The notes beneath the pieces were generated by a model that was given only the letters and a program-made list of their open reading frames with translations, made no database searches and was not told where the DNA came from. The translations under genes were made by a program, and so were the position numbers. From Rhodospirillaceae bacterium (GTDB lineage: Bacteria; Pseudomonadota; Alphaproteobacteria; CACIAM-22H2), in contig JALHMR010000004.1 of NCBI GenBank assembly GCA_022843945.1, forward strand, positions 1 through 64,000: DNA of 64,000 bases, in the 5' to 3' direction. This document shows, one piece after another, positions 1,370 through 14,699 of this stretch (positions are counted from its first letter, which is position 1; every line of letters starts with the position of its first letter).

Positions 1370-1437
1370 TCTAGGTTTTCCCGCCACTGAGATGGCCCTA
1401 TCGACGATCAGCCAAACCCTGATACCGGCCTCTGCAC

Positions 1438-2044
1438 TCAGTGCGCCATCAGAACCGGAACATGCATTTCGCGCAGGACCTGCCGCGTCGCACCGCCCAG
1501 TATCCATTCGCTGAACCAGGACCGGCCATATGCCCCCATGACCAGCAAGTCCGAGCCTGCGTTCCGCGCTTCATTGAGAATAGCTGCTCCGGTTTCGACA
1601 TCGGATGGGTCAAAGCGCCGTGCCTCGACGCACGCTGCGTGGCGCCGGAGATAGAGCGCTTTGCTCCGCCACGTCGAACCCGATTTCGTCCGCCACCGTA
1701 TCGGTTTGCTCTACGACGGCCAAGTCATGAAATCTGCTGGCCCAGGTCAGCAGTTCGCTGGCTGCGCCCTCGCCAATCTTCCAGTCACCGTCGATGCAGT
1801 TTCGTTCCAGAAACCCGCGAAAGACGCTCTCTGCTTTCTGGGCGGCAGCCGCGTCTTTCGCCTGACGCTCCCGCACCGTTGGGGACTCCGCCCCGAGCAT
1901 CGCCTTGAGAACGGCGATGTCCCTGAGCGTGTAGAGGCCGGTCAACCGTGACCCAAAAGCATGGCTCACCCGACCCGCTACCTCGATGTGCTGAGACCAA
2001 CTCTCATAACATTTCACATGAACAAGCACATCGCGATAGCTCAT
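1438..2044 (-). pseudogene. Universal stress protein with internal deletion and frameshift
   Basis: The ATG at 2044 opens a normal tandem-USP first domain (MSYRDVLVHVK..., through EIGFDVAEQ), but near 1655-1662 the reading frame changes. The next frame then reads the extreme C-terminal half-domain of a USP (ALYLRRHA..., LLVMGAYGRSWFSEWILGG, ending VPVLMAH at a TGA at 1438-1440). The segment normally present between these two parts, roughly 70-80 residues covering the end of domain 1 and the first half of domain 2, is missing. The gene is therefore an internal deletion derivative with a frameshifted junction, not just a single-base error. The unrestored frame would end at 1610 after 144 residues with a foreign tail. 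It is the fourth member of the local USP cluster and the only broken one. Confidence 0.8.
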
Positions 2045-2106
2045 CTCATTCCCTTTTCAGCAACGAACGCTGGAAATTTCTCCATTCCACGCACGATTAA
2101 ATTGGC

Positions 2107-2358
2107 TCAGCGGCTCTCGTTGTCATCCGGCAAGGTCCCGGCACCGCCCGAATTGTCTCGCGGCAGATCCGGTTCATCGGGCGGCCTGTTCGCGCGTAGC
2201 TGGAGAAAGCCTTCGAGGTCCCTCGGTGCGATCCGCCACTCCCGGCCGACATTGATAGCGCGCAGGGCGCCATCCTTAATCCAGCGCCGGACCGTCGCCT
2301 CGCCCACCTTGAGGAGGTCAGCCACCTCCTTTACCGACAGAAACTGGCGGGTCAGCAT
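2107..2358 (-). CDS. Excisionase/MerR-type helix-turn-helix DNA-binding protein
   Basis: This 83-residue protein has a single winged-helix domain of the excisionase (HTH_17) family at about 5-55: FLSVKEVADLLKVGEATVRRW is the HTH, followed by IKDGALRAINVGREWRIAPRDLEGFLQ. The C-terminal 30 residues are polar and probably disordered. Such proteins act as small transcription regulators or as recombination directionality factors. It lies between the broken USP gene and the divergent intact USP operon, and the FNR-type box at 2423 lies in its upstream region. It may regulate the USP cluster, or be a leftover recombination factor of the island; the sequence does not separate these. Confidence 0.75.
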   Translation of the reverse strand: MLTRQFLSVKEVADLLKVGEATVRRWIKDGALRAINVGREWRIAPRDLEGFLQLRANRPPDEPDLPRDNSGGAGTLPDDNESR

Positions 2359-2422
2359 CCGTTGTGGCCCTCAGGAAGGCATTGAGTGCGCTTGAGGTTA
2401 TTAGAGCGGAGGCGAGATCACA

Positions 2423-2436
2423 TTGATTCAGATCAA
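2423..2436. promoter_or_regulatory. FNR/FixK/Anr-type binding site
   Basis: The site TTGAT-TCAG-ATCAA is a perfect match to the TTGAT-N4-ATCAA consensus of Crp/Fnr-family oxygen regulators (FNR, FixK, Anr). It lies 88 bases before the ATG of the USP gene at 2525 and 64 bases upstream of the divergent HTH gene. Anaerobic or microaerobic induction of USP genes by such regulators is known in several proteobacteria. That it acts here is inference from the match and the position. Confidence 0.7.
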
Positions 2437-2470
2437 GGTATCCGAGCGATTTCTGTGCGATTTGATGTCG

Positions 2471-2506
2471 AAATTGCTTCTTGGACAGAAATTGCTTCTT
2501 GGACAA
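2471..2506 (+). repeat. 18-bp tandem duplication in the USP 5' leader
   Basis: Two head-to-tail copies of AAATTGCTTCTTGGACA plus one base (2471-2488 and 2489-2506; only the last base differs) lie directly upstream of the ribosome binding site of the USP gene at 2525. The duplication lengthens the leader by 18 bases. It may be simple slippage or a duplicated control element. Confidence 0.85.
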
Positions 2507-2524
2507 ACGAACCGGAGAGGAATC

Positions 2525-3355
2525 ATGCGGAGCGTGCTTGTCGCACTTGACGATACACCCGCCAGCGCGGGCGCGGCCAAGCTCGCGCTGTCCCTTGCGG
2601 CAAGACACGGTGCCGCGGTGACCGGGGTCGGCGTCCTTGATGTCGGCTATCTCACGGCGCCTGAACCTGGTGGGGTCGGAACTGCCTACTACAAGTTCAA
2701 AACCGATCTGGCACGCCTGAAGCAGGCCCATGAGCGGACCGAGCACCTCGTGGAAGCCTTCCTAAAGCAGTGCAAAGCCGAGAACGTGGAAGGTGACGTC
2801 CTGGCCCTGGAAGGGAGCCCTGTGGAGGAAGTGCGCGCAGCAGCAGCGGCACATGACCTGATCGTCATCGGTCGCGACAGCAATTTCCACGGCGAACCGA
2901 CCGATGGCCTGGCCAAGACCGTCGAGCGGATACTGCAAGGAAGTCCCCGGCCACTCATCATTACACCGAATGCGGTCCAAGATCCGTCTCGCATTGTCAT
3001 CGCTTATGACGGCAGCATTCCTGCCGCACGGGCTTTGCAGATCTTCACGCTCCTCGGTCTTGCAGCCAATTCCGAGGTTCACGTGATTTCTGTCAGTTCG
3101 ACGCCGGAGGCGGCAGACCACTGCCTGCGGCGAGCGAGCGCCTATCTCGGCCTCTATGGCAGTACGTGTGTGCCTCGCGCGATCGCTTCGAGGGCGGACC
3201 CAGCCGAACTCATAATCGCGGAGGCGCGATCGCTTGGCGCCGGTTTACTCATGATGGGGGCGTACGGTCATCGCGGCTGGCGAGAAGCGCTGCTCGGTTC
3301 AGCCACGACGCGCCTACTGTCTGAATGTCCGACAGCTCTGTTCATTCATCACTAG
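2525..3355 (+). CDS. Universal stress protein, tandem-domain
   Basis: This 276-residue cytoplasmic protein has two UspA domains. Domain 1 starts MRSVLVALDDTPAS and ends near PLIITPN (about 1-147); domain 2 starts RIVIAYDGS (about 151-276). Domain 2 carries an ATP-binding-type loop, MGAYGHRGWREALLGS, with the G-x2-G-x9-G-S spacing. The ATG at 2525 is preceded by GGAGAGG, whereas upstream in-frame codons have no good site. An FNR-type box lies upstream and the next USP gene follows after 16 bases, so the two are probably one operon. The first domain has no clear ATP loop. USPs bind ATP and help survival under starvation or low oxygen; the partner is unknown. Confidence 0.9.
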   Translation: MRSVLVALDDTPASAGAAKLALSLAARHGAAVTGVGVLDVGYLTAPEPGGVGTAYYKFKTDLARLKQAHERTEHLVEAFLKQCKAENVEGDVLALEGSPVEEVRAAAAAHDLIVIGRDSNFHGEPTDGLAKTVERILQGSPRPLIITPNAVQDPSRIVIAYDGSIPAARALQIFTLLGLAANSEVHVISVSSTPEAADHCLRRASAYLGLYGSTCVPRAIASRADPAELIIAEARSLGAGLLMMGAYGHRGWREALLGSATTRLLSECPTALFIHH

Positions 3356-3371
3356 CGAGGAAGTTCCCGAG

Positions 3372-4262
3372 ATGACCGGCCTGCACGATCCCGAAACGAC
3401 AAAGGGCAACAGCGGCCTCCGCCGCATTCTCGTTGCTTCGGACCTGACGGCCTATTCCGACCGCGCCTTCGATCGCGCCGTGATGCTGGCAGACGAGAGC
3501 CGCGCCACCATTCGTTTTCTTCACGCCGTTGACCCGAACCTGCTGCCCGAGAGCTATGTGCGCAGCGACATCCGACAGGCGCAGGAGCGCCTGGAGCATG
3601 AGGTGCGAGCCAGTGGTGTCGACGAGCGTCTCGACGTGTCGGTCAAAGTCATAAGCGGCGATGCCGACAAGGTGGTCGTCGAAGAGGCCCAGACGATGCA
3701 AGCCGACCTCATTGTCATGGGGCTCTCTCACGATGCCACGTTGACCGGCATGGTTCGCGGCACGACCATCGACAAGGTCGTGAGACGCGCGAGCTGTCCC
3801 GTCCTTGTCGTCAAGACGCGGGCTAGGCGCACTTACGCGAGCATCGCCGCCGCTGTAGATTTGGCGGAGCCATCACGTCGCGCCCTGGACTTCGCGCTTC
3901 GTCTGTTCCCCGCCGCCCAATTCACGATCATGCATGTGGACGAAACAGCGCGGGTCGGCGAGGGCGCGGACTCTATAAGCAGCCCGGCCGGGATCGAGCG
4001 ATTGCACCAGATCGAAGACATGGTCGCCGCCAGGTTCGCGGCTTTCGGCCGGGGCGGGCCCGGGACAAAGGATGGCCCGACTCTGCGGCTCAAAGGCGGA
4101 AGAGCCGCAAATGTTTTGCAAGAGCAGGTCGGGCTCCTGCGACCGGACCTTGTGGTAATGGGCACGCATGGGCGAACCGGCGTCTCAAATCTGTTCCTAG
4201 GGAGCGTGGCAGAGACTCTGCTGGAGGTTCTGCCTCACGACATGCTCGTGACGCGGTCTTGA
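3372..4262 (+). CDS. Universal stress protein, tandem-domain
   Basis: This 296-residue protein has two UspA domains. Domain 1 (about 16-148) starts RRILVASDLTAYSDRAFDRA and ends with CPVLVVK; its loop MGLSHDATLTGMVRGTT is only a partial match to the ATP motif. Domain 2 (about 155-296) ends with the full G-x2-G-x9-G-S loop, MGTHGRTGVSNLFLGS. It follows the preceding USP gene by 16 bases in the same direction, so it is probably cotranscribed from the FNR-type promoter. The 266 bases after it hold no recognisable gene. The family call is secure; a specific role is not. Confidence 0.9.
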   Translation: MTGLHDPETTKGNSGLRRILVASDLTAYSDRAFDRAVMLADESRATIRFLHAVDPNLLPESYVRSDIRQAQERLEHEVRASGVDERLDVSVKVISGDADKVVVEEAQTMQADLIVMGLSHDATLTGMVRGTTIDKVVRRASCPVLVVKTRARRTYASIAAAVDLAEPSRRALDFALRLFPAAQFTIMHVDETARVGEGADSISSPAGIERLHQIEDMVAARFAAFGRGGPGTKDGPTLRLKGGRAANVLQEQVGLLRPDLVVMGTHGRTGVSNLFLGSVAETLLEVLPHDMLVTRS

Positions 4263-4528
4263 GGGACCGTTGTGGATCGGAGCTGTTGATGAAAGGCGTC
4301 CAGCGCCGTGGTTCGGATAGCCCTCGTCCCGGGGGAACGTGGCGGCCTTCACAAGTCACGAATGCTCACGAGATTGAATCGGCAGTTCGATATTTGATCG
4401 GAGACCTGATGTGTGCTGGCGGCACCCCCAAATGCTCGATCTTGGAGTCTCGCCCATTGTGCCGACAACAACCCCGATGGCAGAACCTAGAGCGCGCGTG
4501 CGCACTTTAACCCCAGGACCGGTATGAG

Positions 4529-5392
4529 ATGTATCAGGTGCTCGTAGCACACGATCTTTCGTCGCGCTCGGAAATCGCCCTCGTTCGGGCCGCCCGCTTA
4601 ACGATCGAGCGCGAAGGCCACCTGACCATCGTTCACGTTGTCGATGCCGATCTGCCGCCGCCGGTTATCGAAGCGCAGCGGGCGCACGCCGAGAGCAGCC
4701 TGGAGATCGAGGTGCGTCGATGGCTTGGGCGGGACAAGCCGCCGTACCGCATCGAGATCGTCTCCGGGGATCCGGCCCTCGCTATCGCGTCCCAGGCCCA
4801 GGAACGGGCCGTCGATCTCGTGGTAGCCGGCCGGCACCGGCGGCGCGTCATCGCCGATATTTTCACTGGCACCACTGTCGAGCGCCTACTGCGGCAGGTC
4901 GATGGCCCAATCCTAATTGTCAACAATCCGGATCAGTCGCCCTACCGCCGCGTCCTCATCCCGGTCGACTTCTCGGACGCGTCGACCGCGGCGATCCGCT
5001 TCGCGGCCGCTTTTCTTCCGAACGCGAGCCTTCACCTGTTTCACGCATACAAGGGGCCATTCCAAGACTATGTGGTAACGCTCTCTTTGACGTTCAGCCG
5101 CGAGGAAAGAGCCAAATTTGCCGGCCCCATCGGCGAGCAGGCGAAACATGCAATGTCCAAGCTGATTGACAGTCTGAAGTTAGCTGAACGCCAGCCCATC
5201 GTGACGATCATGAATGGGGATGCCTTGACGCTGATCGAGGAGGAACTGGCTAAAGAAAAGACGGACCTGGTGGTGATGGGAACGCACGCGCGCACTGGTC
5301 TTGCTTACGCTCTGATCGGCAGTGTGCCGGAGGCAGTTCTTAAGACCGGCCAATGCGACATGCTCATCGTTCCGGTTCACGTGTCCTCTTGA
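4529..5392 (+). CDS. Universal stress protein, tandem-domain
   Basis: This 287-residue protein has two UspA domains. Domain 1 starts MYQVLVAHDLSSRSE and includes AGRHRRRVIADIFTGTTVERLL and PILIVNN (to about 132). Domain 2 starts RRVLIPVDFSDAST and ends with the ATP-type loop MGTHARTGLAYALIGSVPE and a CDMLIVPV strand. The start is the ATG at 4529 (ATGTATCAG); the ATG of the overlapping opposite frame was not used. It is separated from the preceding USP gene by 266 bases, so it may have its own promoter, but no FNR-type box was seen there. Together with its neighbours it forms an unusual concentration of USPs beside a P-type ATPase. Confidence 0.88.
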   Translation: MYQVLVAHDLSSRSEIALVRAARLTIEREGHLTIVHVVDADLPPPVIEAQRAHAESSLEIEVRRWLGRDKPPYRIEIVSGDPALAIASQAQERAVDLVVAGRHRRRVIADIFTGTTVERLLRQVDGPILIVNNPDQSPYRRVLIPVDFSDASTAAIRFAAAFLPNASLHLFHAYKGPFQDYVVTLSLTFSREERAKFAGPIGEQAKHAMSKLIDSLKLAERQPIVTIMNGDALTLIEEELAKEKTDLVVMGTHARTGLAYALIGSVPEAVLKTGQCDMLIVPVHVSS

Positions 5393-5684
5393 TGAGCCAG
5401 ATATCGAATCATCATCCGAAAAGCATGCGTCTTGTAGCGCATTGGTACAAGAATGAAGGTTGGTCGGGGCTGTATTGCGCCTCGAAGCGCATCCCGGCGG
5501 CGACCAGATCGGAGGACGCTCGGGTGGAAAGCGGGCCGTACGACATGACCGCCGGAAGCCTCCCCGATAGAGGTCAGTGGACCTCGAGTCATCACATTCG
5601 GCGGCGGATCACGAAGGGTTTTTCAACACTATCTGCACGAAGCGGACCTCTCTTCGCCGGCATGGAGGAATGTAAGGCCTCTTA
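5393..5684. other. Spacer between the USP gene and the insertion sequence, no supported gene
   Basis: A 97-codon frame opens on the plus strand at an ATG overlapping the USP stop (5392) and runs to 5685. It has no recognisable domain, no ribosome site and atypical composition, so it is not called. It ends exactly at the IS boundary, so it could be the 5' part of a gene cut by the IS. Confidence 0.4.
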
Positions 5685-5704
5685 GAGTCCGTTTGAGAAT
5701 GGGA

Positions 5705-6190
5705 TCAATGGCTGATGCGGTGCAAGAGGAGGCTCCCCATGGCGACGTGGATCATGGCCTCCGAGACGTCGATGCGGGCTTCGTAGTCGCGCACGAGGCG
5801 GCGCCAACGGGTCATCCAGCCGAAGGTGCGCTCGACGACCCAGCGACGCGGCAGGACTTTGAAGCGCGGCTCGGCGTCGAGGCGGCGGACGATCTCGATG
5901 ACGAAGTCGAGGAAGGCGGCCTTGTCCATGAGCTTGGTTCGATCGTAGGCGCCATCGGCGAACAGATGTTTGATCCACGGCCAACGCTTGCGGATGGCGT
6001 CGAGGATCGCTTGGGCGCCGGCGCTGTCGGAGATATCGGCCGTGGTGAGGTTGACCATCAGGAGGCGGCCGTCGGTGTCGACGACGATATGCCGCTTGCG
6101 GCCGACGATCTTCTTGCCGGCGTCGTAGCCCCGCGTTTTGGCCGCCGGCGCCTTCACCGTCTGGCTGTCGGCGACGCCCGCCGTCGGGCC
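5705..6190 (-). pseudogene. IS5-family transposase, N-terminus missing
   Basis: About 160 residues of an IS5-family DDE transposase are readable up to the stop at 5705. The catalytic triad is still recognisable: Asp in VADSQTVK, Asp in LFADGAYD, and Glu in RRWVVERTFGW. GYDAGKKIVGRKRHIVVD is a family hallmark. The N-terminal third, including the DNA-binding part, is replaced by IS3-type sequence in another frame. The open frame can be extended upstream to 6265, but those residues are the IS3 gene read out of frame. It is most likely inactive. Confidence 0.75.
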
Positions 6191-6345
6191 TCCGACACGT
6201 CCAGCCCGCCGTACTTCGCCTTCCACTTGTAGAACGTCGCGCTGCTGATCCCGTGCCGGCGGCACACCTCCTCCGTCTTCGCCCCCGCCTCCTGCTCACG
6301 CAGGATCGCGATGATCTGCTCTTCCGTGAACCGGCTTCCTCGCAT
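6154..6345 (-). CDS. IS3-family OrfA (transposase helix-turn-helix subunit), 3'-altered
   Basis: The 63-residue product starts MRGSRFTEEQIIAILREQEAG and has the HTH_Tnp_1 helix-turn-helix of IS3-family OrfA (EEVCRRHGISSATFYKWKAKYGGLD, about 25-50). After SEARR, where OrfA would continue into its leucine-zipper region, the sequence crosses into IS5-derived DNA and ends after about ten foreign residues. Without OrfB it cannot transpose. Start is the ATG at 6345, about 60 bases inside the IS3 left end. Confidence 0.7.
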   Translation of the reverse strand: MRGSRFTEEQIIAILREQEAGAKTEEVCRRHGISSATFYKWKAKYGGLDVSEARRRASPTARR

Positions 6346-6392
6346 CGTCCGTCTCCCCTGGTCGACGGACTCTACCCAATTCTGGAGGAGTT

Positions 6393-6515
6393 TTAGGGGC
6401 TCAGGTCAACGAGGACAATCTCGGCCAGGCGATCCACTACCTTTGCAGCGGAAGATTCAGGCGAATCATATGCCCCGATGGGCTCGACTGGTGGCTGATA
6501 TGGCGGATACCTCAT
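6393..6515 (-). pseudogene. 5' fragment of an unidentified gene truncated by the IS
   Basis: On the minus strand an ATG at 6515, preceded by GAGGA at a good distance, starts MRYPPYQPPVEPIGAYDSPE and continues SSAAKVVDRLAEIVLV. At 6408 the IS3 left end begins, adding DLSP and a stop at 6393. The residues before the IS look like genuine protein, so this seems to be the beginning of a gene whose remainder was lost when the chimeric IS formed. The family is not recognised. Confidence 0.45.
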
Positions 6516-6926
6516 CAACGAGAAGTCCTCGTACTCCACGTTTCGTTGGGGCGCGTCTTCCAAGAAGCAGCGCAGCTACGTGTCATAACGCAGACGTTAC
6601 CAACATTGGTGGAGCTGGCACGATACTTCAGCTATGACGCGGTCAGTGGAGAAAGCCAGCGTGGCATCAATCTGCCCGTGACGCGACGTTTCGGTAGAAA
6701 GATCCGAAAAAGCGGGTGGTCGATTGTGACGGTCTCCACTCTGCATGGGCAGTGCACGGTGGATCCCTTCTGCGGAGGGGGGGGCCTATGGGCGGGTCAG
6801 CGCATGGGCCAGAGCACTCGGACTATTGACAACTAGAGAAATGGAAGAATCCTACAGAGGTCCTTCGCCGAACTTCGATTCGCTCCGCCGATCATCAGGG
6901 AAGGATGATGCTTATGGGAGTAACTC
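6516..6926. other. Region without a supported gene
   Basis: This stretch between the IS-truncated fragment and the small gene at 6927 holds only short frames. A plus-strand frame at 6546-6836 encodes 96 residues with a plausible middle part (LVELARYFSYDAVSGESQRG), but it lacks a ribosome site and any family. A run of nine G lies near 6776-6784. It is probably decayed coding DNA plus the promoter for the gene at 6927. Confidence 0.4.
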
Positions 6927-7184
6927 GTGAAACCGACACATGAGCTATCTGATCACGTGAAAAAACCAGTGATCCTCCGGTTCCGCGGCGAAGGCGACGC
7001 GTACAAGCGCGCCCAAGTCGTCGCTGACGCGCTTGGCCTCTCAATGGAAGAGTATCTGTACCAATGCGTGCGCGAGGGTCACCGGGTCCTGCAGAGTCGT
7101 CAAATCGCCTCGGGAACGCTTCTCGATGAGCGTGAAATCATCCCCGCTTTTGCACGACGCGACGGGTTTATCGAATTCGTCTAA
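6927..7184 (+). CDS. Small hypothetical protein
   Basis: This gene encodes 85 residues from a GTG at 6927, preceded by GGGAG at a good distance. The middle (ILRFRGEGDAYKRAQVVADALGLSMEEYLYQCVREGHRVLQSRQ) looks like a small helical protein with a ribbon-helix-helix-like pattern (a beta strand, then two helices). That could make it a DNA-binding or antitoxin-like protein, but no family is recognised. It precedes the M15-like gene by 81 bases in the same direction. Confidence 0.5.
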   Translation: MKPTHELSDHVKKPVILRFRGEGDAYKRAQVVADALGLSMEEYLYQCVREGHRVLQSRQIASGTLLDEREIIPAFARRDGFIEFV

Positions 7185-7265
7185 AAGTAGATTTCGTTGC
7201 CCGGTTCTGCTCAGTCTCTTTAGTCGCCAGCCTGTTGGCCTACGTGCGCTGCAAGGAGGGTGAGA

Positions 7266-8000
7266 ATGAAGCGGCCTAAGACGGTTCGGTCTCTTGAAGA
7301 ACTTGGACGCGTACAACTGTCTCCAAGTTTCTTCATGCGAGACTTTCTGTATAGCGAGATCGCGGTCATTCACGGTGTTCAGAACATCCCGGATGATCCT
7401 GATCTAGCCATTGAGGCCGGGCGAGCCCTCTGCCGCGAGCTCCTAGAGCCTCTGCAGGCGGTTTTCAACCGCATTTCAATTCGATCAGCATATCGCTCCT
7501 GCGATGTTAATGGACTCGGCAATCGCGAGGGGTTCAGCTGTGGGTCGAACGAAAGCAACTATGCGGGCCACATCTGGGATCGACGGGATGCGGCGGGCCA
7601 TATGGGGGCGACCGCGTGCATCGTCATTCCCTGGTTCCTGCCGCGCTATCGAAAGTCAGGGGATTGGCGTCCACTCGCGTGGTGGATCCACGATCATCTG
7701 CCTTACAGCGATATGGAATTCTTCCCGAAATTGGCCGCTTTCAACATCACCTGGCACGAAAAGCCCTCAAGGACGATCAGCAGCTACGCGCCGCCTCAGA
7801 AAGGGGTGCTGACAAAACCTGGAATGACGAACCACGGCGGAAGCCACGCCTCACTCTACGAGGAGTTTCCCGCACCTATCGCCTCAGCGGCTCTGCCCTG
7901 GCTCGAGGCGACAGACAAAGCTGAGAAGCGCGGCAACGCGCTGCTGGCAAAGGAGGTGGAGCGCCTGCGCCGCCACGGTAAATTGCCGATCGCGGAATGA
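7266..8000 (+). CDS. Peptidase M15-like protein (D-Ala-D-Ala carboxypeptidase fold)
   Basis: The product has 244 residues. The pattern LCRELLEPLQAVFNRISIRSAYRSCDVNG matches the LEPLR...I.ITSGYRS..VN region of M15-type peptidases. It is followed by a possible zinc site, GHIWDRRDAAGH (His then Asp), and WHE near residue 165, which is placed like the third ligand. No signal peptide is seen, so it is predicted cytoplasmic unless released by other means. The ATG at 7266 has a strong AAGGAGGG site 5 bases upstream; the GTG at 7260 overlaps that site and was rejected. A hairpin overlaps its stop. It may modify peptidoglycan during transfer or lysis, or use the fold otherwise. The family assignment is from motif pattern only. 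Confidence 0.55.
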   Translation: MKRPKTVRSLEELGRVQLSPSFFMRDFLYSEIAVIHGVQNIPDDPDLAIEAGRALCRELLEPLQAVFNRISIRSAYRSCDVNGLGNREGFSCGSNESNYAGHIWDRRDAAGHMGATACIVIPWFLPRYRKSGDWRPLAWWIHDHLPYSDMEFFPKLAAFNITWHEKPSRTISSYAPPQKGVLTKPGMTNHGGSHASLYEEFPAPIASAALPWLEATDKAEKRGNALLAKEVERLRRHGKLPIAE

Positions 8001-8025
8001 GGCTGCCTACGTTGGAGGCAGCCTC
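7999..8025. terminator. Hairpin between convergent genes
   Basis: GAGGCTGCC and GGCAGCCTC form a perfect 9-bp stem with a 9-base loop, starting in the stop codon of the M15-like gene and lying before the convergent gene that ends at 8043. There is no long T-run, so it is a weak or bidirectional terminator. Confidence 0.5.
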
Positions 8026-8042
8026 TATTGGGCTGATGGGCG

Positions 8043-8426
8043 TCACATTTCCATGCCGCGACGGCGTCGAGCAGGCGGATGAGTTTTCGGAGACGGTCTG
8101 AGGGGTGGCGGCTGGATGCCTTGCTTGGATAAGGTCCGAGCCTGGGCTGTTGCGGTCCCGCTTGTTCCCGGAGCGCTCGTGGGAAGCTGTCGGGTAAGGC
8201 GGCGCCAAAGTTCCCCGGTCAACGCGCTCATCCCGGCTTCAAGCTGACTAAGGTCTAAACCAGAGTCGCCTGCATAGGCTTGGCGATACCAGGCAATGGC
8301 GGTGTTCCGATGGAAATTCAGCAGGTCGAGATGATCAAGGGCGACTAGTTTTATGCGTCGCTCCGGAGGAATTTCGCTCAGTGGGGCAACGATGATCACG
8401 CTGGAAAGCAGGTTGCTGTTGTTCAT
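8043..8426 (-). CDS. Hypothetical protein of the mobilization block
   Basis: The protein has 127 residues. It starts at the ATG at 8426, with GGAGG upstream. The first half (MNNSNLLSSVIIVAPLSEI, then LVALDHLDLLNFHRNTAIAWYRQAYAGDSGLDLSQLEAGMSALTGELWRRL) is predicted mostly helical; the C-terminal 45 residues are rich in Pro, Thr, Arg and Lys and probably unstructured. No family is recognised. It is the last gene of a leftward run that follows the ATPase and membrane-protein genes, so a role in DNA transfer or element maintenance is possible. Confidence 0.6.
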   Translation of the reverse strand: MNNSNLLSSVIIVAPLSEIPPERRIKLVALDHLDLLNFHRNTAIAWYRQAYAGDSGLDLSQLEAGMSALTGELWRRLTRQLPTSAPGTSGTATAQARTLSKQGIQPPPLRPSPKTHPPARRRRGMEM

Positions 8427-8446
8427 GGGGTCAGCCTCCAAAGTGT

Positions 8447-9358
8447 TTAGTGCAATGCCACGGTACAGGTGAGAAGCGGTCGTCCCTCTCGAAGCCAGCG
8501 GCTGCCCGGTTGATCGAGACAGGGATACGGAGCGTATGGAGTGCCCTGTCCGGGGCCCGTATAAGCCCAAGCGATGGCCGTAATGCGTGCCAGCTGGCTG
8601 TCAGACAGTTGCGCGAGCTGTCGAAAGGACGGCAACTGGCCGCTGTCTGCCTTGAGCCACGACTGCACTTTGGTCCAGTCCTGGGGCGCGATGCGGGCAG
8701 AGTCTTGGCACTGTTGAATTTGATCAGTTGGGAGCGCGGCCAATGCCAAAATTGCCGCTCGACCGGATTTCGTCATCAACGGCCCCGAATTCAACGATCG
8801 GAGCCGAGCTCGCTCTTGCTGCGGCAGCGTCGAAACCCACGTCAGGAGTTCACGCGCCTCGGTGTTCGAGGCAGCCAGATCGGCGAGGAGCAATGCCAGG
8901 GGAGCCTGTTGACTGGGGGTCTGCTCCGCAATGGACCGCGCGATCATGCCGATCGCAGCGCTACGACCGATCTTCCCGGCAGATGGTTGAGAAAGCCATC
9001 CACCCTGGGATGTACCTGCGGGCAAGGGCAGAGAATCGAGTGTGCCCACGAGTGCTGCTGCTTCAGGCGATGCCATCAGGCGCGTCGTAACCTGCTCGGC
9101 CGACAAGACAGACGTCCATCCAAAGCCTGCAGGGCGGATTAGCTCCAGGGCGCGGCGCTCGGCTGCGGAGATAGTGACCGCGGATAACGGCCCCTCGATT
9201 GCGATCCGGAAAGCTGTCTGTGCTTGGAACCCGGCAAAACCGCCGATGAGCAGCAACGTGATGGCGATGAAAGCGTGCCGTCTCCGTCGCCGCCACAGTT
9301 CCACTCGGTACCGCGCAACGAGACGCTGCTTCAATTCGGGAAGGCCTAGGGCGCTCAT
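8447..9358 (-). CDS. Single-pass membrane protein of the mobilization block
   Basis: The protein has 303 residues. A basic N-terminus (RYRVELWRRRRRH) is followed by one hydrophobic helix at about 29-47 (AFIAITLLLIGGFAGFQ), so it is probably an inner-membrane protein with a large periplasmic domain. That domain is Ala/Leu/Ser-rich and helical. The C-terminus has two cysteines (APYPCLDQPG, LLTCTVALH) that could form a disulfide. The start ATG at 9358 overlaps the stop of the ATPase gene by four bases (ATGA), which indicates translational coupling. No family was recognised; a role in element transfer or partition is suggested only by context. Confidence 0.6.
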   Translation of the reverse strand: MSALGLPELKQRLVARYRVELWRRRRRHAFIAITLLLIGGFAGFQAQTAFRIAIEGPLSAVTISAAERRALELIRPAGFGWTSVLSAEQVTTRLMASPEAAALVGTLDSLPLPAGTSQGGWLSQPSAGKIGRSAAIGMIARSIAEQTPSQQAPLALLLADLAASNTEARELLTWVSTLPQQERARLRSLNSGPLMTKSGRAAILALAALPTDQIQQCQDSARIAPQDWTKVQSWLKADSGQLPSFRQLAQLSDSQLARITAIAWAYTGPGQGTPYAPYPCLDQPGSRWLREGRPLLTCTVALH

Positions 9359-10191
9359 GCGATCCCGGTCGTAACCGCATCTGCTTGCGTGGGAGCCGGA
9401 GGAGGTACAAGCCCAACAGACCGGAAAGAGCTCAACGTCTCATCGACCCATTGAACAAGGTCCGCCTGGGCGCCGCTCGCGGCGAATGCGTCGAGGCCGT
9501 GGGTGCGCTCCAGCTCTTCCAGGTCCGCGGTGAGCAAGTCGTGAAACGGGAGATAGTTCCGCTCCGCGATTGGCCATAACTCCGAGTGACATTGGGCCAT
9601 AGCGGCAATCCGCAGCCCGTGAGAGCGCTTCAGCGCATGAAAGCGTTGGAAATCTTCGCTCGAGCCATAGCCGTCGAATGTGCCGCCCGACTCGTTTTGG
9701 ATAAGCACGCGGGAGGCTATGGGGAGGAAATCAGCCTCAGCGACCGACCGCTCTAGGACGTATAGAGCGTCCTCGACGGCCTGAGCCTGCGGCTTCATGG
9801 GGACGCAGAGAACTATCGGAGGCGCGCCGCGCTGACGCAGGATCCGCCCGGCGTCTCGGCTTCTCGCCCACTCGAACACAAATGGCGCTACGTTCGCGCC
9901 AATATCGATGATGAATCCGCCCTGGAGCAGAAGGGCTCCCAACTGGTCCCAGTAGGCGATCGCCGCTCCCTGGTTTCGCCGAAGGTCGTTCAAGCGAACC
10001 CCCAGCCCAAGTTCGCGTACGAGACCCGGGTAGAATTTCCCGAGCTTTGATCGCTCTTCGTCGCCGGCCGTATCTGCGGCGGCGAGTTTGGGAGCGAACC
10101 CCGCATCGCAGTATCCGAGATAAATCATCTGGGAGGTCAGGGTTTTCCCCTGGCCGCCGGTTTTGGTCATCACGATTACAGTTCGTTTCAT
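9355..10191 (-). CDS. TraL/StbB-like P-loop ATPase
   Basis: The protein has 278 residues and is ParA/MinD-like. The N-terminal strand VIVMTKTGGQGKTLTSQ is a deviant Walker A motif (residues about 5-18), ADTAGDEERSK follows, and GGFIIDIGANV fits the Walker B region. The pattern of an ATPase that handles a D-x-x-G signal and ends a strand in IDIGAN is seen in conjugative TraL and plasmid StbB proteins encoded beside mobilization genes. The start ATG at 10191 has GGAG upstream; the longer frame reaching 10398 lacks such a site. It is coupled by overlap to the membrane protein gene. A role in DNA transfer or positioning of the element is inferred. Confidence 0.65.
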   Translation of the reverse strand: MKRTVIVMTKTGGQGKTLTSQMIYLGYCDAGFAPKLAAADTAGDEERSKLGKFYPGLVRELGLGVRLNDLRRNQGAAIAYWDQLGALLLQGGFIIDIGANVAPFVFEWARSRDAGRILRQRGAPPIVLCVPMKPQAQAVEDALYVLERSVAEADFLPIASRVLIQNESGGTFDGYGSSEDFQRFHALKRSHGLRIAAMAQCHSELWPIAERNYLPFHDLLTADLEELERTHGLDAFAASGAQADLVQWVDETLSSFRSVGLVPPPAPTQADAVTTGIA

Positions 10192-10213
10192 GGGATTCTC
10201 CTTTTGGGTGCAG

Positions 10214-10642
10214 TTAATCAACAAGAGTCGCCAGCCCACGCCGCCGGCCAGCGGGGGCCCCCGATGCTGAGGAGGGAATAGAGCTGAGCCTGGGGCGGAT
10301 TGAGGTAGATGCGCGTTCCCCTCGCGCTTGGAGCGCAGGCTCGGATCTATCGAGGGGCTGAAGGCTTCTTTTGGAATGCTTCTTGCGCAGGCTGGCATAA
10401 AGCGAGCGCAACTGATGGCCAGTCACGGGCTTCCCGGAGCGCCAGCGCAGGCCTTCCTCTACCAGCAGAGTCGCCACCGCATCCCACGAGCCCGCGACCT
10501 CGTATAACGCGCCGACCTGTTCTAGGTTCAGCCGAACGAAGGTGCGGACCCCCTTCTTGATCGAGGCCTCGCGTGCCAGTTCGGCTGTGCGTTCTGCGGC
10601 TCGGCGAAGCCTATGCGCCAGGCCATCGTTAGCGACGCTCAT
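10214..10642 (-). CDS. Hypothetical DNA-interaction-like protein of the mobilization block
   Basis: The protein has 142 residues from the ATG at 10642. The N-terminal part is helical (LAHRLRRAAERTAELAREASIKKGVRTFV), followed by LNLEQVGALYEVAGSWDAVATLLVEEGLRWRSGKPVTGHQLRSLYASLRKK. The latter resembles small HTH modules found in plasmid and island proteins, in which a helix pair is followed by a GHQLRSLYASL recognition-like helix. The last 45 residues are basic and low in complexity. A longer start at 10693 is possible. It ends 22 bases before the ATPase gene. Family not recognised. Confidence 0.5.
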   Translation of the reverse strand: MSVANDGLAHRLRRAAERTAELAREASIKKGVRTFVRLNLEQVGALYEVAGSWDAVATLLVEEGLRWRSGKPVTGHQLRSLYASLRKKHSKRSLQPLDRSEPALQARGERASTSIRPRLSSIPSSASGAPAGRRRGLATLVD

Positions 10643-10811
10643 CGGACGTTCCACCAATCTGACGAATGTTTCGCGCCGAGGTTTGCGCTGCATGGAACGC
10701 TGCCAGTTGCGCTCCCGAAATCGCTGCGGCGGCCGCTGCGCAGAATGCTGCGATATGGCAGGCCATACAGGGGCGGAACTTGTACCGTTGTGTGATACAG
10801 GCCCTGTGCAT
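10629..10811 (-). CDS. Possible small Ala-rich protein in the gap between relaxase and next gene
   Basis: An ATG at 10811 opens 60 residues (MHRACITQRYKFRPCMACHIAA, then an Ala-rich helix and ISGAQLAAFHAAQTSARNIRQIGG). It overlaps the following gene by 14 bases and would fill the 213-base gap after the relaxase-like gene. It contains a CxxCH motif but no signal peptide, so haem binding is unlikely. Composition alone supports it; the gap could equally hold the transfer origin. Confidence 0.3.
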   Translation of the reverse strand: MHRACITQRYKFRPCMACHIAAFCAAAAAAISGAQLAAFHAAQTSARNIRQIGGTSDERR

Positions 10812-10855
10812 GCGGGCTGACGAGACGATCGCGCCGAATGTTGAAACCCCGCCGT

Positions 10856-11542
10856 TCACAGGTCGATCTCCCAAGAGCGCTGTCGCCTTGGTGGGGTGCG
10901 CTGGACAATCTCCTGGGTTAGTACCGCGTGTATCGGGTGAGGTTTCTGGTGCGCCTTAAGAAACGATCGATCCGCGACCGTCGTCGCCTTCGCCGCAGCA
11001 GTCTTGCAGACAGCTCGAACCCGCCGGCGGATCACATGCAGCGGGATGGAGCGTCCCGTGTCCGGATCAGCCAGGACGACGATCGCATGCAGGTGTTCTA
11101 GTGGCTCGGCGGCTTGTCGCTTTACGCCAGAATGACCGTCGCTATGGAGCACGAGGACACCACAGCGCTGGGAAAGCCCTGTCGCAGCGGCAACAGAGCG
11201 AAAGACGTGGAGGTAGTCTCTGCGCGTCTGCGCCGATCCGCGCTCCAGGCTTTGAAGCGGATCGACGGACAGCGTTATATGGGCAACACGGTGGCGTAGG
11301 TCCGGTCGCGTCCGGGATATGGCCTTAAGCGCCGCAATCGATCTCCGAAAGACTTCGCGTCGCTCGGTGTCTGTCTCGACCCAGTCTGTCTCGAGTGCTG
11401 CCTCGAGCCCCAATGCCCATGGGCGTACCGCGACGACGCGGCTCTCTGGAGCGTCGATGCCGGGGAGATGGGGGCTTTTGGGCGCGTCGAGATAGGACGC
11501 GAGGCTCGAAACCGAACCTCTGGTGTATATGCGGCCTATCAT
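10856..11542 (-). CDS. Relaxase-like mobilization protein
   Basis: The protein has 228 residues, short for a relaxase. The N-terminus MIGRIYTRGSVSSLASYLDA is like the first motif of MOBP-type relaxases, with Tyr6 as a possible nicking residue. HRVAHITLSVDP is a strand ahead of the active site, and LEHLHAIVVLADPDTGRSIPLHVIRRRV matches the metal-binding histidine motif and following strand (H-x-H normally; here HLH). The start is the ATG at 11542, overlapping the stop of the MobC-like gene by four bases (ATGA). The frame can be extended upstream to 11575 but that part overlaps the MobC-like gene. The assignment rests on motif shape, order of genes and coupling to MobC. A third histidine of the full motif is not evident. 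Confidence 0.55.
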   Translation of the reverse strand: MIGRIYTRGSVSSLASYLDAPKSPHLPGIDAPESRVVAVRPWALGLEAALETDWVETDTERREVFRRSIAALKAISRTRPDLRHRVAHITLSVDPLQSLERGSAQTRRDYLHVFRSVAAATGLSQRCGVLVLHSDGHSGVKRQAAEPLEHLHAIVVLADPDTGRSIPLHVIRRRVRAVCKTAAAKATTVADRSFLKAHQKPHPIHAVLTQEIVQRTPPRRQRSWEIDL

Positions 11543-11892
11543 GGCCGGCGGCCCGACTGCGGCGCCGAGGCCCACTCAGCGTCGAGGCGCTCGATCAGTC
11601 GAAAAACCCGTTGAATGAGCTCCTTCAGGTCGGTGTCCGTAGTGCCACCCGTGTCGGGATGGATCATGCCTCCGAGGACACGCGCCAGGCGGACGAGCTC
11701 GCGGATCTCCTGCACCCGTTGGGGAGGGTTGCGCCGGCATAAATCATCTGGTGAGATGCGGGAGGGTGTGATTTCTCCGACAAGCAGTAGCTCGAGGACG
11801 CGCGAGCGGCTGAGAGCCAGATGACTGGCCAGCCGGCTTAGGGACGTCACGGCGGCCGGCGTCAGACGAAAACTCTTCAGGATCCTACTCAT
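11539..11892 (-). CDS. MobC-like relaxosome accessory protein
   Basis: The protein has 117 residues. The N-terminal half (SFRLTPAAVTSLSRLASHLALSRSRVLELLL) looks like a ribbon-helix-helix segment; the C-terminal half (RVQEIRELVRLARVLGGMIHPDTGG..DTDLKELIQRVFRLIERLDAEW) fits the bacterial mobilization protein MobC pattern (helix, RvGvNlNQia-like segment, helix). Such proteins bind the transfer origin and assist the relaxase. The start at 11892 overlaps the stop of the upstream AlpA-like gene by eight bases, and its own stop overlaps the relaxase-like start. The close coupling of three genes supports a mobilization operon. Confidence 0.6.
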   Translation of the reverse strand: MSRILKSFRLTPAAVTSLSRLASHLALSRSRVLELLLVGEITPSRISPDDLCRRNPPQRVQEIRELVRLARVLGGMIHPDTGGTTDTDLKELIQRVFRLIERLDAEWASAPQSGRRP

Positions 11893-12178
11893 GGTGGGAT
11901 CCTGCTCCGGCAGGCGCCAGCAAGGGCACCGATGTGGAAACCGGCGTAGGATGGTCTGCCGTGTTGTGCTGTTCCCGCTGCCTCATGAACTCAAGTAGCG
12001 AACGGCGCCGATAGCGGACGAGGGAGCCGACCTTCGAGAACGGAGGGCCTCCGCCACGGGACCGCCACGTCACTAGCGTGGCTTCCGAAATACCGGTTAG
12101 CTGTGAGGCTTCGCGGGTTGTTACGAACCCCTCAAGCCAGTCGGCATCGTACCGGTCAGGGTGTGGGAGATTGTCCAT
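11885..12178 (-). CDS. AlpA/excisionase-type helix-turn-helix protein
   Basis: The protein has 97 residues with one HTH_17-type domain (FVTTREASQLTGISEATLVTW, then RSRGGGPPFSKVGSLVRYRRRSLLEFMRQ, about 20-68). Proteins of this kind act as excisionases or as regulators of the integrase of genomic islands and mobilizable elements. The start chosen is the ATG at 12178, with GGAG seven bases upstream; a TTG at 12190 would give a slightly longer form. It is the first gene of the mobilization operon and lies behind a set of direct and inverted repeats. It could control excision by the integrase at 13194 and the mob genes at once. Confidence 0.75.
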   Translation of the reverse strand: MDNLPHPDRYDADWLEGFVTTREASQLTGISEATLVTWRSRGGGPPFSKVGSLVRYRRRSLLEFMRQREQHNTADHPTPVSTSVPLLAPAGAGSHHE

Positions 12179-12258
12179 GCGTGTCTCCAAGTGTGGGAGA
12201 ACGCTAGGACTGGGCCGCGATGGCAGGCTATCTCCAACCCGTCACATGGGACGGGTTG
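12161..12258. promoter_or_regulatory. Direct and inverted repeats upstream of the mobilization operon
   Basis: GTGTGGGAGA occurs at 12161-12170 and 12191-12200, exactly 30 bases apart; the second lies next to TCTCC, giving a small hairpin. CAACCCGT (12235-12242) and ACGGGTTG (12251-12258) form an 8-bp inverted repeat with an 8-base spacer. These lie at the 5' end of the AlpA-MobC-relaxase operon. They could be operators for the AlpA-like protein, a terminator for the gene ending at 12287, or part of a transfer origin. Confidence 0.45.
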
Positions 12259-12286
12259 TGATCACATCGTTCGTAGGAACAAGAGG

Positions 12287-13066
12287 TTAGGGCTTGCTGA
12301 GCGGCGCTCGGCTGCTGTTTTTGGTCGTCCGTTCGTCCAGGAGTTCGCCTATAGCCCTGGTCAAGTACGTTCGCAACGTTTCGACCGTGTACGGTGGTGG
12401 ATCAAAGGCGGTCAATAGAAACCGCGCCAAAGGACGCTTCTCAAGGTCGCTCAGACGCCGATTGGGGTCTTTCTCCAAATACTCCCGCAATGCTTTCGAA
12501 ATTATCCATTCAGGTTTGTTTTTCTTGTCTCCCGAGTGAGTGGCCGCGAACCCATGTGCTCTCATCGAGGCCGCAATCTCGTAATACCCGGGGGGAATGG
12601 AAGCCGCCACCGGAGGCGTCGACGGTTCCACTTTACTCGAGGTGCTGTCGCACCGGTCGTCGGCTTCAAGAAGCTCTCCAATCAGTGTTACCCAGTCGCG
12701 AGCTACCCGTTCACTCGGCAGAAAAACGCTGATGGTGGGGTCATCGGATTTCCCTCGCACACCGATCCATAACCGGTACTTTGTCGTCGGGTGACTGCGC
12801 CAATTCTTGCTCAGCTCCTCTCGAACTTCGAAGCTGACAATGTCGTGGCTCGTTAGAACCTGCGGCGGGGGGCTGAACAAAGAATATATCGCCAAACGCG
12901 CTCCATCCGTTCCCAATCCTGCACCACTGAAGAACGTATCGACGCGGGCCGCTTTCCCGTCTAAGGCGTCTGCGAGCTTGCGCCGAATGTGTGGGCGGAC
13001 GGCGATTAGGTAGACGCCCAGAGCTAGGGACGTCAGTAGCAGTAGCGCAAACCAGAGCCAATCCAT
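12287..13066 (-). CDS. Membrane-anchored hypothetical protein
   Basis: The protein has 259 residues. MDWLWFALLLLTSLALGVYLIAV is a single N-terminal membrane helix, followed by a basic segment (RPHIRRKLADAL), a mixed alpha/beta region (about 45-130, with ISVFLPSERVARDWVTLIGELL), a Pro/Ser/Thr linker, and a C-terminal helical region with many charges. The start is the ATG at 13066; a GTG at 13075 is equally open and neither has a strong ribosome site. It lies between the integrase and the mobilization operon in the same direction. No family is recognised. Because it sits next to the integrase, it is probably element cargo or a transfer helper. Confidence 0.6.
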   Translation of the reverse strand: MDWLWFALLLLTSLALGVYLIAVRPHIRRKLADALDGKAARVDTFFSGAGLGTDGARLAIYSLFSPPPQVLTSHDIVSFEVREELSKNWRSHPTTKYRLWIGVRGKSDDPTISVFLPSERVARDWVTLIGELLEADDRCDSTSSKVEPSTPPVAASIPPGYYEIAASMRAHGFAATHSGDKKNKPEWIISKALREYLEKDPNRRLSDLEKRPLARFLLTAFDPPPYTVETLRTYLTRAIGELLDERTTKNSSRAPLSKP

Positions 13067-13128
13067 CGGCAGCACTCACTGAATCGCAGAAGCATATCTT
13101 ACCTGAGTCGCTAACGCGCATAGGGAAG

Positions 13129-13170
13129 GAGTTTGACGGCCGGGCCCTTGCGCCGGCTTGCGCGGAATTG
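13129..13170 (+). repeat. Left copy of a 42-bp perfect inverted repeat flanking the integrase
   Basis: This 42-base sequence (starting GAGTTTGACGGCCGGG, ending GCGCGGAATTG) recurs with no mismatch in inverse orientation at 14616-14657. Between the two copies lies just the integrase gene. Similarity continues about 14 bases further, with two mismatches, toward the integrase side. CTTGCGC occurs at 13147, 13157 and 13177, that is at 10- and 20-base steps. Confidence 0.95.
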
Positions 13171-13193
13171 ACCTGCCTTGCGCTTGGAATTGA

Positions 13194-14489
13194 TTAACCG
13201 CGGGCGGCGATTGCTGCACGCTGCGCCGCCTTGCGGCCCCTGAGATTCGCCTGCTTACCTTTGCTTACCCGTTCACGCCAATTCTGGACGTGGGTCGCCG
13301 TGCCTTCCTTGCTGGGGGGAGCCGGAAGCAGATGGCCAGCAATCACTTCGCCCACACTCTCGGACGCCAGACGCTTGGGATCGTCGGGCAGGTGAGCGTA
13401 GATCATCGTGGCCTGCAAAGAGCCCTGTCCGAGAAGACCGCCGACTGTCGGCAGTGACACGCCAAGGCCGATACCGAAGCTGGCGAAGCTGTGTCGGAGA
13501 TCGTGGATTCGGACGTCTTCTAGGCCGGCCAGCTTGCGGAGGGCGCGCCAGGGCTTTTCCAGGTCGGAGTACGGCAATCCGGGCCGCGTGCCCTGTATGA
13601 CGTACGGGTTGGAAGGATCGCGGGGGATCGATTGCAGAATCTCGAGTGCGGCGCGGTTGAGCGGGATCAGCTTGGCGCCGTCCTTGTCGGTCTTGTGGTC
13701 TTCGATAATGAGCTGTCGATTGTGGAAGTCTACGCTCCGCCATCTGAGCTTGCGGATCTCGTTGAGTCGAGCGCCTGTCACCAGCAGGAGGCGGAAGGCC
13801 GCGATGACGAAGGGTGAAACAGCGCCGGACCGTTCCGCCTTATCCAGTACGATCGCCAGTTGCTTCAGCTCGTCAAAGCTCAGGAAACGCCGGCGCTTGT
13901 GCTCTTTGAATTTCTTTACCTCGCTGGTGGGGTTGTCGTCCTTCGGGATGAGTTTCCAGAATTCGGCACGTCCCCACATGGCGCAGAGCAGTCCTAAACA
14001 CCGGTTGCCGTTGTACGGGGTTGCCTTCAGCGACTGATGAAACCGGTCGACGACCGTCGGCGTCAGTTCTGGCAGCGTAAGACGGCCCAGTTTCGGAACG
14101 ATGTACTTCTTGAGGAGCCAGTTGTGGGCGGCGATCGTCGAGGGCTTGCACCGTCCTTCGCAATGGTCGGTCATATAGCGCTCGGCCAGATCCTTAACCG
14201 TCGTCGCCAGCCGCTGCTCGACCCGTTCCTGGCGGGGGTCCCGACCTTGTGTCACCTGGGCCAGCTCGTCTCGGGCGAGGCGCCGTGCCTGGTCGAGAGT
14301 AAGAGTGCCGTAGCGGCCGATCTTCTGCCGGCGGGAGCGTCCCTGCCGGTTCCGGTACTGGATGACGAATGTCTTGGCGCCCGTCGGTTTCACACGCAGC
14401 CCGAAGCCGGGCAGCGAGGAGTCCCAGAGAAAGAGGTCACGGCTCGTGGCCTGGGCCTGATCGATCTCGTGTTTGGTGAGCTTTCCCAT
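13194..14489 (-). CDS. int: Tyrosine recombinase (phage/island integrase)
   Basis: The protein has 431 residues with the architecture of island integrases of the P4/CP4-57 type. It has an N-terminal arm-binding domain (about 8-90; LPGFGLRVKPTGAKTFVIQYRN, then GRYGTLTLDQARRLARDELAQV), a core-binding SAM-like domain (about 100-190) and the catalytic domain. Active-site residues are visible: Arg in LLVTGARLNEIRKLRW, His-x-x-Arg in IHDLRHSFAS, and Tyr in SLQATMIYAHL. The extreme C-terminus is basic. It lies 127 bases from a tRNA-derived attachment site and is framed by the 42-bp inverted repeat. It should catalyse integration and excision of the element at the 3' end of the initiator tRNA gene. 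Confidence 0.95.
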   Translation of the reverse strand: MGKLTKHEIDQAQATSRDLFLWDSSLPGFGLRVKPTGAKTFVIQYRNRQGRSRRQKIGRYGTLTLDQARRLARDELAQVTQGRDPRQERVEQRLATTVKDLAERYMTDHCEGRCKPSTIAAHNWLLKKYIVPKLGRLTLPELTPTVVDRFHQSLKATPYNGNRCLGLLCAMWGRAEFWKLIPKDDNPTSEVKKFKEHKRRRFLSFDELKQLAIVLDKAERSGAVSPFVIAAFRLLLVTGARLNEIRKLRWRSVDFHNRQLIIEDHKTDKDGAKLIPLNRAALEILQSIPRDPSNPYVIQGTRPGLPYSDLEKPWRALRKLAGLEDVRIHDLRHSFASFGIGLGVSLPTVGGLLGQGSLQATMIYAHLPDDPKRLASESVGEVIAGHLLPAPPSKEGTATHVQNWRERVSKGKQANLRGRKAAQRAAIAARG

Positions 14490-14615
14490 GTGGGCCTCGT
14501 CCGGCGGGTAAGCAAAAGGTAAGCAGAAAGCTACAAACCGGGGAGGGTCCGGTCAATGGCCCACAACACTGATACTCAATATTTTTGTGTATAATCAACG
14601 TTCTACAAGGGAGGA

Positions 14616-14657
14616 CAATTCCGCGCAAGCCGGCGCAAGGGCCCGGCCGTCAAACTC
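14616..14657 (-). repeat. Right copy of the 42-bp inverted repeat, joined to the tRNA fragment
   Basis: This is the exact reverse complement of 13129-13170 over 42 bases. Its last three bases (CTC, 14655-14657) run directly into the tRNA-Met fragment. It lies 127 bases upstream of the integrase start, so it may be in the integrase promoter or arm-binding region. Confidence 0.95.
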
Positions 14658-14699
14658 ATAACCTGAAGGTCACAGGTTCAAATCCTGTCCCCGCAACCA
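14655..14699 (+). other. Attachment site: 3' fragment of initiator tRNA-Met (CAT anticodon)
   Basis: Reading on the plus strand, the segment holds the anticodon loop CTCATAA, the 3' side of the anticodon stem, the variable loop, a complete T-arm (ACAGG-TTCAAAT-CCTGT), the acceptor 3' strand CCCCGCA, and ACCA. This is the 3' 45 bases of an alphaproteobacterial initiator tRNA. The 5' half is absent: the acceptor TGCGGGG and D-arm do not occur, and the 5' anticodon stem mispairs (TCAAA against CCTGA). It is therefore a crossover product, not a functional tRNA. The host terminator follows, so the element lies to the left and the intact tRNA should be at its other end. Confidence 0.8.

Follow-up and report, generated by a model that had tools for sequence, protein, structure and literature searches.

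Inversion switches of the Hin/Fim type are built from inverted recombinase sites that flank a segment. Control of an integrase gene (int) is usually attributed to the single att site beside it. For ICEMlSymR7A, the parts of the published work drawn on here report that attP-bound IntS silences intS and that RdfS binds at attP as well as at the promoter of its own gene (PMC11963761). In the window, by which we mean the whole 64-kb stretch of DNA analysed, int lies between two att half-sites in inverted orientation, an arrangement for which we found no description in the open literature.

The most conspicuous part of this arrangement is a perfect inverted repeat of 42 bp, one copy being the exact reverse complement of the other (Table 1). 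Only the int ORF lies between the copies, the right copy leads straight into a 3′ fragment of tRNA-fMet, and on the int side the match continues as similar yet mismatched sequence (59 nt at 92%, 13122–13180 against 14606–14664), in agreement with the first-pass annotation. The longest exact inverted match at this pair is 42 nt, with no 43-mer match, and it is the sole inverted match of at least 20 nt within the 64-kb window, for which the chance expectation of exact 42-nt inverted matches is ∼4e-15. Dispersal of the repeat through the genome, which that annotation had named as a finding that would speak against its view, was not observed; a search across the organism's own genome found no third copy of the 42-mer.

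The 42-bp repeat forms the core-proximal end of a bigger duplicated unit. A second inverted feature, absent from the first-pass annotation, is provided by GGTAAGCA arm pairs on opposite strands either side of int, each separated from the 42-bp block by a spacer of ∼70–80 bp, so that the distance from arm to 42-mer is nearly equal on the left and on the right. This placement implies that each flank of int holds a complete predicted P′-type half-site, in which the GGTAAGCA arm pair is followed by the spacer, then by the 42-bp block and finally by the core half TCAAA-CTC. The suggestion that the repeat could hold arm-type sites on either side of int was therefore correct in that inverted arm-type repeats are present on both flanks, but they are found beside the 42-mer and not within it.

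Table 1. Features of the int locus and the adjoining island genes, in window coordinates (G127 is the genome carrying the closest related element)
Feature	Position	Strand	Remarks
ParA-like protein	9355–10398	−	47% identical in G127 element
MobA/VirD2-like relaxase	10856–11575	−	Weak match, below gathering score; common to G127 element
HTH_17 protein, candidate recombination directionality factor	11885–12190	−	Weak excisionase-family match
Gene just beyond extra att copy, variable slot	12287–13075	−	Without homolog at same place in G127 element
Core-like site of extra copy, TCAAA-CTCCTTC-CCTAT	13120–13136	−	
Inverted copy of 42-bp block, int 3′ side	13129–13170	−	
Imperfect inner extension, left copy	13171–13180	−	
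Tyrosine integrase, 431 aa	13194–14489	−	Arm-DNA-bind_3, SAM-like, Phage_integrase
Inverted arm-type pair GGTAAGCA-AA-GGTAAGCA (N2, period 10)	13252–13269	−	Within 3′ coding end of int
Arm-type pair GGTAAGCA-AAA-GGTAAGCA (N3, period 11)	14507–14525	+	P′ arm of putative working site
Imperfect inner extension, right copy	14606–14615	+	
42-bp core-proximal block, int 5′ side	14616–14657	+	Core half-site TCAAA-CTC at its end; putative working attR/attP arm
Core TCAAA-CTCATAA-CCTGA	14650–14666	+	7-bp overlap taken as fMet anticodon loop (inferred)
Displaced tRNA-fMet 3′ fragment, right island end	14655–14699	+	Identical to 3′ part of initiator tRNA-fMet

Judged from sequence, a mobilizable island occupies initiator tRNA-fMet and has its working attR in the half-site on the 5′ side of int, and the inverted half-site on the 3′ side is extra. 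Membership of the tRNA-integrated mobilizable elements rests on the whole integrase together with its att sites, and the position of the 7-bp overlap was deduced from the junction between element and tRNA sequence in several fMet elements. The intact initiator tRNA-fMet gene lies on another contig of the same genome (C21:706–782), and its 3′ end forms a direct repeat present at 14655–14699 of the window, at C21:743 in the intact gene and at C21:58622. The intact gene is followed on C21 by a second element (element 2, integrase 41% identical) that ends at the fMet fragment at C21:58622. Past this fragment, GGTAAGCAGTAGGTAAGCA at C21:58737–58755 is the same arm pair that is seen upstream of the window int, and GGTAAGCA arm-type repeats are thus found at both ends of the window island (14507–14525 and C21:58737–58755). 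The apparent order is a tandem array of tRNA, element 2 and element 1, in which element 1 would run from C21 across the contig break into C4, up to window position 14657. Element 2 has a different arm repeat, AGGTACCA, at each of its ends, which supports the naming of such repeats as arm-type sites. Two different islands apparently occupy one tRNA-fMet (C21:706–58661 and window 1–14657), each integrase having its own arm repeat (AGGTACCA versus GGTAAGCA). G410 (L064) has a tandem of similar kind, and G127 (L069) a matching arrangement.

The window integrase has arm-binding, core-binding and catalytic domains above the Pfam cut-offs (PF13356, PF14659 and PF00589) and the catalytic residues R241, K266, H329, R332 and Y364. 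Residue 355, in the LGH motif, is Gln, whereas the catalytic His is present here in 54 of the 54 relatives compared; because Q355 replaces this His, the window copy may be weak, impaired or inactive. Its last ∼35–40 residues are encoded over the duplicated att segment and are missing in the G127 relative. Searches with the integrase found no close relative among viral contigs, plasmids and phages, and a single, distant match among genome contigs.

Across 55 related integrases, a flanking inverted repeat was confined to L022 of G127 and L064 of G410, which form the sister clade with a tree support of 1.0. The other loci checked had inverted-repeat scores no better than those of shuffled sequence, bar marginal values for the very distant L014 (29 versus 25) and for L048 (24 versus 23). 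Elements at fMet in viral contigs (L109 and L110) were also considered as candidates and rejected, their arm repeats being different and the flanking repeat absent. The closest relative (L022/G127), with an Int that is 54% identical, comes from a different taxonomic family and is present in two species. It has the same tRNA-fMet target and the same inverted arm pairs, together with a perfect 57-bp repeat that is mostly unlike the 42-mer, and the arm-to-core distances are comparable in all four half-sites of the two elements. Over 6,768 bp of the island, L066 (G127:C7) and L064 (G410:C49) are 100% identical although they come from two species of one genus, which suggests a very recent transfer; the pair is consequently counted as one independent case, giving n = 2 independent elements with the layout (the window, and G127/G410). 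The other counter-finding named in the first-pass annotation, a lack of the second copy in related islands, is true of distant relatives but untrue of the closest one. The same layout in different letters, with equally perfect copies, looks maintained and not accidental.

The HTH_17, relaxase-like and ParA-like genes of the G127 island match those of the window in order, although the relaxase assignment is a weak one (PF03432, E = 0.00047), its 20.9 bits falling short of the cut-off of 24.6. Relatives of the ParA-like protein in G196 and G291 were set aside, as they are situated in other contexts. Since the relative has the same ordered island genes, the layout belongs to the island lineage and not to a free cassette. 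This bears directly on the earlier idea of a small int cassette moving alone, for which the 42- and 57-bp blocks, with the geometry of terminal inverted repeats, would mark the ends of a self-mobile unit. We consider such a cassette extremely unlikely: the 42-mer is nowhere else in its own genome, no example away from fMet was seen among the 55 related integrases or in the arm-pair scan of 327 genomes, the relative carries the same island genes behind int, and there is no target duplication, the flanks GCATAGGGAAG/GAG and CTC/ATAACC sharing nothing.

In the interval that separates the inner att copy from the HTH gene, the two elements carry unrelated genes of 262 and 330 aa (window 12287–13075 and L066 8074–9066, respectively), and this interval is possibly a cargo slot. 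It could be that Int uses the inner half-site to capture cargo and join it to the island, as the adjoining genes are unrelated while those beyond are common to both elements. However, a second matching core, sought beyond the variable gene, was not found, and with a comparison of two elements only we regard capture as very unlikely. Elsewhere in the window, an ORF at 5705–6265 resembles, by eye, an IS5-type transposase fragment and lies near several universal-stress-like ORFs (2423–5392).

The arm pairs themselves are informative about age. The GGTAAGCA pair is present in 20 of the 327 genomes of the class, with two control matches, and in several genomes GGTAAGCA-N3-GGTAAGCA lies 50–130 bp from tRNA ends, where control matches are scarce; in the taxonomic order to which G127 belongs, the pair adjoins tRNA genes for Lys, Leu, Val and Met that are intact. 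In both the window and the G127 elements, the spacing of the inner arm pair is 10 nt (N2). Among the matches listed, the other exact GGTAAGCA pairs are N3 or longer (spacing at least 11 nt), with one N2 exception in G415, where an N3 pair is accompanied by a third repeat that is out of register. This shared N2 spacer, set against N3 or more elsewhere, makes the inner half-site look ancient and common to the two elements, its copies being apparently orthologous. Some arm pairs were also seen in other settings. In G127 an extra pair (L066 12761–12779) lies outside the tRNA fragment, at a distance of 1.6 kb and with no adjoining tRNA or integrase, and at L068 6150–6220 and L070 6950–7045 pairs lie beside an isolated CCCCGCAACCA tRNA tail where no tRNA can be recognised; the latter two are probably decayed left ends of islands.

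The core-proximal block has behaved differently from the arms. It is identical within each element (42/42 in the window and 57/57 in G127), and between elements it matches at 15 of 34 positions outside the core octamer TCAAACTC. Arms group by position and blocks by element, so that the two parts have different histories, which is the mark of concerted evolution; with two independent cases, this is a strong indication that the block has evolved in concert, presumably by conversion or recombination between the copies. Fresh copying of the whole 170-bp unit is ruled out by its diverged middle portion, which contrasts with the perfect end. Each lineage might have acquired a recent duplication independently, but this would explain neither the shared N2 spacer nor the divergence of the spacer that separates arms from block. 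The view that the repeat is conserved rather than freshly copied therefore fits the unit, which appears old, but not the 42 bp, which are homogenised within the element and different in the sister element.

Such a history might also be that of a relic. Under this main null explanation, the extra copy is an ancient inverted duplication without present function, left for example when another copy entered a secondary site and was later deleted, and host recombination or template switching keeps the block identical. This is consistent with the diverged arm-to-block spacer and the unrelated outer flanks, and ∼40–60 bp of homology might permit conversion. A relic would not be expected, however, to retain both inner GGTAAGCA octamers intact in both elements across 54% protein identity, in sequence that is non-coding in G127, nor to preserve the arm-to-core distance, and we find this explanation doubtful.

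In both elements a pair of inverted half-sites, each having arms and a core end, terminates inside the predicted overlap, and the core-proximal block is homogenised. These features would also suit an invertible int segment, as proposed in the first-pass annotation, in which Int recombines the inverted cores, or the host resolves Int-made Holliday junctions, so that int flips and is uncoupled from the leftward genes, while this traffic keeps the repeats identical. Inversion requires matching overlaps, and it is less favoured because the overlaps, at their inferred position, are unequal (CTCATAA versus CTCCTTC in the window, CTCATAA versus CTCATCC in G127). Moreover, int has one orientation in all three known copies, two of which are identical by recent descent, and crossover at the core alone would leave the blocks unhomogenised. 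Inversion is therefore unlikely, and as the inner core overlap is unlike the tRNA overlap, the inner core is perhaps not recombination-competent. A broader proposal, that in a family of islands int is an invertible or looped module whose expression reflects the island's state, its flanking blocks being homogenised by abortive recombination by Int through Holliday junctions at mismatched overlaps, is rather unlikely.

A regulatory and architectural half-site bridged by Int is favoured over an inversion switch, owing to the ICEMlSymR7A precedent, the position of the inner half-site in a gap and the 10-bp periodicity. The inner half-site occupies the gap from int to the next same-strand gene (13075 to 13194), and no promoter was predicted in this gap of the window element. 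Both blocks tend to a direct 10-bp periodicity (p 0.012 and 0.056, uncorrected, with eight lags tested), a weak hint that an oligomeric excisionase might bind there, as at Xis-type sites. Our tentative explanation, which we hold to be a real possibility though short of probable, is that the extra copy is a second half-site binding Int and excisionase, which controls or loops the int region and is kept identical by recombination. The inner half-site would be a live binding site for both proteins, upstream of a block of leftward genes, the HTH/excisionase candidate among them. By occupying both half-sites, Int would bridge them and loop the int gene, and the loop would tie expression of int and the genes downstream to att-site state. 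The blocks could stay identical via host gene conversion or via Holliday junctions that Int initiates at the cores of both copies. Counting against this explanation are the missing promoter prediction in the gap, the small number of independent elements (two), the unlike overlap of the inner core and the Q355 of the window integrase.

An old mirror-image half-site, with its arms kept and core-proximal identity, would add a regulatory or recombinational layer to such elements. The two divergent elements are a ready comparison pair for binding and inversion tests, and their contrasting signals, with arms grouping by position and blocks by element, offer a natural test case for the evolution of att sites by gene conversion.

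The window element resembles tRNA-targeted elements of the lambda/P4/ICE type in its combination of Arm-DNA-bind_3 and Phage_integrase, in having int beside att and a tRNA 3′ fragment at the far end, and in its tandem arm repeats on both ends; it differs from them in that a further P′ half-site, inverted, adjoins int on its 3′ side. It shares with ICEMlSymR7A the arm-type sites in attP and an int adjoining att, but the portions of that work used here describe no inverted second att half-site beyond int, and place the excisionase gene at the head of the conjugation operon (PMC11963761). As in Hin/Fim-type switches, inverted sites surround a segment, which here is the recombinase gene itself; unlike in those switches, the crossover overlaps are unequal and the inverted form is unseen among the three known copies.
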